A stretch of 37,040 nucleotides of DNA from Natronomonas salinimetallica (GTDB lineage Archaea; Halobacteriota; Halobacteria; Halobacteriales; Haloarculaceae). This document shows, piece after piece, positions 18,987 to 37,040 of the stretch (the first letter of the stretch is position 1; each line of letters begins with the position of its first letter). The stretch lies in assembly GCF_013839515.1 (NCBI RefSeq), contig NZ_JACDNQ010000017.1, positions 7,382 to 44,421 on the forward strand, given 5' to 3'. Both the position numbers and the translations under genes were made by a program. The notes under the pieces were generated by a model. It saw nothing but the letters and a program-made list of their open reading frames with translations, was not told where the DNA came from and ran no database searches.

Positions 18987-19100
18987 TGATACTGACGGAC
19001 AAAAGAATGTACACACGACGCACGAGGATCACGCCGTTCGACGGAGCGAACGGCGGATCACTCGTGAGTCGGTTTCATTTGATTTCGTCCACCAGTATGA
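18987..19100. repeat. 114-bp symmetric palindromic element, complete copy (MITE-like)
   Basis: The outer 14-nt arms, tgatactgacggac (18987-19000) and gtccaccagtatga (19087-19100), are inverted repeats matching at 11 of 14 positions. Two 16-nt spacers flank a 54-nt central palindrome (19017-19070). Its inner stem, cgccgttcg/cgaacggcg around a 6-nt loop, extends through GATC/GATC and CACGAG/CTCGTG pairings with small bulges. Arms, spacers and core are equal in length on both sides of the centre at 19043/19044. A GTC triplet flanks both ends, but three bases are weak evidence for a target duplication. It encodes nothing evident. At least 96 bp of it recur exactly at 36945-37040. Confidence 0.88.
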
Positions 19101-36945: not shown

Positions 36946-37040
36946 TGATACTGACGGACAAAAGAATGTACACACGACGCACGAGGATCACGCCGTTCGA
37001 CGGAGCGAACGGCGGATCACTCGTGAGTCGGTTTCATTTG
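36946..37040. repeat. Palindromic element, second copy, cut by the window end
   Basis: Bases 36945-37040 are identical to 18986-19081 over 96 positions. The left outer arm and the whole 54-nt central palindrome (36976-37029) are present. The right spacer is partly present and the right outer arm would fall beyond base 37040; by symmetry the element should end near 37059. As with the first copy, it lies about 50 bp upstream of a minus-strand gene. Confidence 0.9.

Follow-up and report, generated by a model that had tools for sequence, protein, structure and literature searches.

In Haloquadratum walsbyi, the SMR-A repeats (HqIRS42/43/55) are non-coding elements of about 110 bp with prominent inverted ends, present in up to 54 copies (PMC3119063). 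They were reported to lack a target duplication and to insert into PATEs/IS605 palindromes, the PATEs themselves having neither terminal inverted repeats nor target duplications (PMC3119063). The mobilisation of the Haloquadratum 'small mobile repeats' has been called enigmatic, the source of their mobility being unknown (PMC3119063).

Here, a 37,040-bp stretch of the Natronomonas salinimetallica genome (the window) was analysed, in which a preliminary description had placed a symmetric sequence of 114 bp at 18987-19100. The sequence was confirmed at this position, but the size was not, because the outermost TGA...TGA is a target-site duplication and the element itself is 108 bp long. The alignment of the copies shows a common unit of 110 bp bordered on each side by a variable base, the left base being the same as the right and lying almost always inside T-N-A; a 108-bp element TACTG...CAGTA within a duplicated TNA is the parsimonious reading of this alignment. 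The features of the window are as follows.

18987..18989, no strand: left copy of the target-site duplication, TGA, 3 bp, a TNA being duplicated at 56/61 copies in the host genome
18990..19097, plus strand: non-autonomous MITE of 108 bp, a near full-length palindrome, based on copy number, identity and DNA fold z
18990..19003, plus strand: left terminal inverted repeat TACTGACGGACAAA, based on end matches versus the reversed-pattern control
19041..19046, no strand: apex loop of the predicted hairpin, the surrounding palindrome being inverted in five distinct copies, based on the fold and copy comparison
19084..19097, minus strand: right terminal inverted repeat, reading TACTGGTGGACGAA on the minus strand, based on end matches and the copy alignment
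19098..19100, no strand: right copy of the target-site duplication, TGA, based on the duplication counts and the gapless empty sites of nested copies
36946..37040, plus strand: second copy, comprising the left target-site duplication and 92 bp of the element and ending at the window end and N gap, with 95/95 bases identical

The symmetry around 19043/19044 is real, although it is imperfect, with 42 pairs and bulges in place of the clean arms and spacers originally described. As a single strand, the element folds into a near full-length hairpin (z = -7.1 for DNA and -8.0 for RNA), and 0/200 shuffles folded as well. The terminal pattern gave 115 + 112 end matches, compared to 11 + 3 in the reversed-pattern control. 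In five distinct copies, two in the host genome (own9 and own12) and three in the congener G003, the centre of the palindrome lies in the opposite orientation to the arms around it, as might result from cruciform or strand-switch events in palindromes of this type.

The second copy in the window, at 36946, is identical to the first over all of the available bases, as had been noted, and is truncated because the contig (locus L079) has a run of N directly after the window end. This N gap would be expected if the pair were a segmental duplication or an assembly artefact confined to two copies. However, a search of the host genome, as the preliminary description had proposed, yielded dozens of copies, at least 61 of them full-length, with unrelated flanks and clean 3-bp duplications, and the closed 2.91-Mb genome of G003 holds older copies, 88-95% identical to the query. 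An origin of this kind, which the earlier account had kept in view, can hence be given practically no probability. Thirteen copies are identical to the query, 26 differ from it by one base, and 50 of the 61 full copies are at least 98% identical, indicating that the burst in the host genome was recent. A perfect TNA duplication flanks 56 of these copies (26 TCA, 15 TGA, 10 TAA, and 5 TTA). At G000:C3:70-190 (L051-L055), upstream of a thermosome-like subunit gene, a tandem array contains five units of the MITE's right-hand 23 bp (TCATTTGATTTCGTCCACCAGTA).

A second MITE family was observed in the same genome (L222, L236, L241, L249, and others), with a length of 107 bp, the ends TACTGCCGGACGT, and an unrelated interior. 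This family has the same TNA duplication as the query family, and its element at L003 hosts a nested copy of the query MITE. When the insert and one TGA were removed, the L003 host aligned without gaps to L241 over 113 columns, 92 of them identical. Likewise, the L217 host, after removal of the insert and one TNA, aligned without gaps to L216 over 113 columns (102 identical). These gapless alignments of empty sites to intact relatives fix the duplication length at 3 bp. The query and sister families together gave 195 insertion sites: 158 with a 3-bp duplication, in every case TNA, 10 with TA (3 of the 10 in the host genome), and 27 with neither. The element is thus short (108 bp), non-coding and multi-copy (61 full copies), with terminal inverted repeats and a target duplication for which empty sites exist, as expected of a MITE.

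The end motif TNATACTGNYGGACNNA was found in 101 of 392 Halobacteriales genomes, with up to 158 matches in a single genome and control counts near zero. Such elements occur in Natribaculum, Natrinema, Natrialba, Haloarcula, Halobellus, and Natronorubrum, among others, and over all families their lengths cluster at 74-79, 95-99, and 107-108 bp (about 78, 98, and 108). The comparison of the L209 host with the element in L205 allows the 78-bp class to be read as 108-bp elements lacking a 30-bp hairpin tip. At 2974-3043 of L114 (G160:C44), the unit TACTGACGGACGAACCTCACGCATC is repeated in tandem, forming another array of MITE ends. No convincing close similarity to the query element was found in phage and plasmid records. 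The IMG/VR matches from three pattern scans fell mostly on low-GC contigs without convincing pairs and were taken as chance, and a literature search with the literal end sequences matched no haloarchaeal paper.

The copy at 18990-19097 lies 42 bp upstream of a minus-strand gene for a PF0610-like HTH/zinc-ribbon protein (start 18944), and the second copy lies 53 bp upstream of a minus-strand LigT/2'-5' RNA ligase-like gene (start 36892). The reported position upstream of minus-strand genes in the same orientation therefore applies to both window copies, but it is not a general pattern, since other copies lie downstream of genes or on stop codons, in either orientation. Within 1.5 kb of the copies, the recurrent neighbours were common genes only, with no recurring transposase. 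The insertions prefer the target Y-TRA-G. In a tally of 183 insertion sites from the host and other genomes, 55 of the 155 sites outside genes fell exactly on a stop codon, compared to about 42 expected. Strong targeting of stop codons was rejected, as the enrichment is modest and becomes smaller once the local base preference is modelled. Read on one strand or the other, every TNA gives a stop codon, and where an insertion falls exactly on a neighbouring gene's stop codon (about a third of those outside genes), the duplicated TNA restores the stop.

These positions on stop codons, together with the strong fold, could be taken to favour a conserved module, either regulatory or an RNA hairpin, with a selected function at each gene, as the preliminary description had offered. 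In the same direction, the older congener copies keep 88% of the pairs, with 13 compensatory cells compared to 7.8 in shuffles. However, the compensatory cells come from few positions in related copies, the pair types do not exceed those in shuffles, and the copies stand beside unrelated genes, in both orientations and with exact target duplications. The element had no Rfam match at the gathering threshold. With this weak base-pair covariation in the older copies, a hairpin-RNA role for the element is unsupported, and a selected module is a quite improbable explanation.

At about 4415-4925 of L386, a stand-alone IS630-like helix-turn-helix protein of about 170 aa, without a DDE domain, ends ~10 bp before a MITE. 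The candidate partner was traced from this solo DNA-binding ORF to haloarchaeal IS630 proteins and from these to their homologues. The IS630 element of Halovenus salina is bordered on each side by TGA and reads TACTGAGGGCT...TTGAGTA in between, and its homologues, 1069-1072 bp in length, come from Halorubrum, Natribaculum, Haloarcula, and others. The ends of this clade are like TACTGTCGGCT and TACTCACGGAC, with TACTG(T)CGGC on the left. Seven copies have TACT ends and the same TNA to the left and to the right (TCA in four, TGA in two, and TTA in one), and the copies in L402 and L305 have mismatched duplications. The transposase comprises HTH_33 and DDE_3 (DDE_3 E = 2e-31; NCBIfam IS630 255 bits, cut-off 100) and is of the DD34E type, with 34 residues from the second D to the E. 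Its gene is laid out in two overlapping frames with a conserved A7G slip site, and this conserved layout suggests that the frames are joined by -1 slippage at A7G.

A matrix built from the MITE ends placed 14/14 IS630 ends within the top 0.08% of the background. At positions 15-34, past the terminal repeat, 57 distinct MITE ends matched the IS630 right-end profile at 7.31/20, compared to 5.06 +/- 0.18 for shuffles, so that the MITE end resembles the IS630 right end over about 30 bp. Thus, a full-length transposon with arms like those of the MITE, for which the preliminary description had proposed to look, is found in other haloarchaea as IS630 elements with related ends and TNA duplications; the ends are not identical, however, being GGCT on the left and TACTC on the right. 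In Natribaculum breve, MITEs and IS630 elements of the partner clade are both present. The earlier suggestion of a recently mobile, MITE-like element therefore holds, given the copy number, the near identity, the TNA duplications, the nested empty sites, and an autonomous transposon family whose ends and duplications match.

A search of about 0.8 Mb of the 2.78-Mb host genome, in partly overlapping stretches, gave no transposase of the partner type. When TACTG...GGAC ends were paired over long distances in nine genomes and the genome_contigs loci (several hundred TACTG ends), only neighbouring or nested MITEs were obtained, and no single element larger than about 205 bp bore the pattern at both ends. 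Other candidates were also rejected: the Pfam family DDE_Tnp_4 had zero matches in the host genome, none of the four DDE_Tnp_1 matches there had TACTG ends, and ordinary haloarchaeal IS630 elements (L392-L398) have different ends. The named haloarchaeal IS630 elements inspected (ISHti6, ISNpe13, ISNamo16, and ISNpe3) likewise lack TACTG ends.

The failed pairing, and the lack of a transposase recurring beside the MITE copies, would be consistent with mobilisation by a different transposase, unlinked or domesticated, much as REP sequences are moved by RAYT proteins, the likeness to IS630 being convergent. However, the pairing could not have yielded the IS630 elements because their ends (GGCT and TACTC) do not fit the TACTG...GGAC pattern, and these elements share with the MITEs both the duplication of TNA and about 30 bp at their ends. 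Moreover, REP/RAYT and IS200/605 elements are not known to make a target duplication, unlike the MITE. We consider a different mobiliser unlikely.

These results suggest that the feature very probably belongs to a high-copy MITE family mobilised in trans by an IS630-type transposase of the ~1070-bp-element class. An IS630-class transposase would then move the MITE, and a matching transposase is presumed to be, or recently to have been, in the host genome. In the proposed mechanism, the DDE transposase supplied in trans would bind the TACTG...GGAC ends and the AAGT-CGTAAAGA-like subterminal stretch, excise the 108-bp palindrome (inverted ends TACTG-N-Y-GGAC), and join it to a T(N)A target with a stagger that is usually 3 bp (TNA) but at times 2 bp (TA). 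Its autonomous relatives would be the ~1070-bp haloarchaeal IS630 elements with the putative -1 frameshift at A7G, DD34E, and TNA duplications. Since both MITE ends resemble the IS630 right end, the palindrome may have originated by fold-back of that one transposon end.

More tentatively, with the balance tipping slightly against it, a haloarchaeal branch of IS630/Tc1-mariner may have exchanged the 2-bp TA cut for a flexible one at T(N)A (3 bp usual, 2 bp occasional) and spread fold-back hairpin MITEs of preferred lengths (about 78, 98, and 108 bp) through the order, MITEs that would account for the hitherto unexplained 'small mobile repeats' of Haloquadratum. If an IS630 branch in nature duplicates TNA and, in a minority of events within one MITE family, TA, the control of strand-cut spacing becomes open to direct testing. 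The analysis also names a likely mobiliser for abundant, previously orphan haloarchaeal hairpin repeats, with an end motif present in about one in four of the Halobacteriales genomes sampled.

Textbooks treat the TA duplication as a constant of IS630/Tc1-mariner transposition, and 3 bp is atypical. The present system resembles the haloarchaeal branch of IS630 in the HTH_33, DDE_3, and DD34E of the partner, in the inverted ends, and in the TA at 10/195 MITE sites, but departs from the family's 2-bp TA in the seven clean partner copies with 3-bp TNA and in the MITEs, which mostly have TNA. PIF/Harbinger and IS1031-type IS5 elements make 3-bp TNA/TWA duplications and are alike in this respect, whereas their transposase is another one, DDE_Tnp_4 being absent from the host genome and the DDE_Tnp_1 loci lacking TACTG ends. 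PATEs and other IS200-IS605 derivatives are also palindromic and of high copy number in haloarchaea; in contrast to them, the query MITE has terminal inverted repeats and a target duplication. With MITEs in general (e.g., Haloquadratum MITEs, PMC3119063), the element shares a short, non-coding sequence whose inverted ends and duplications match a larger transposon, and it differs in being palindromic over nearly its whole length; about 0.8 Mb of host sequence yielded no partner. Compared by published description, SMR-A differs from the MITE in having been reported without the target duplication (TNA at 158/195 sites), while both are about 110 bp long, with inverted ends and a high copy number.
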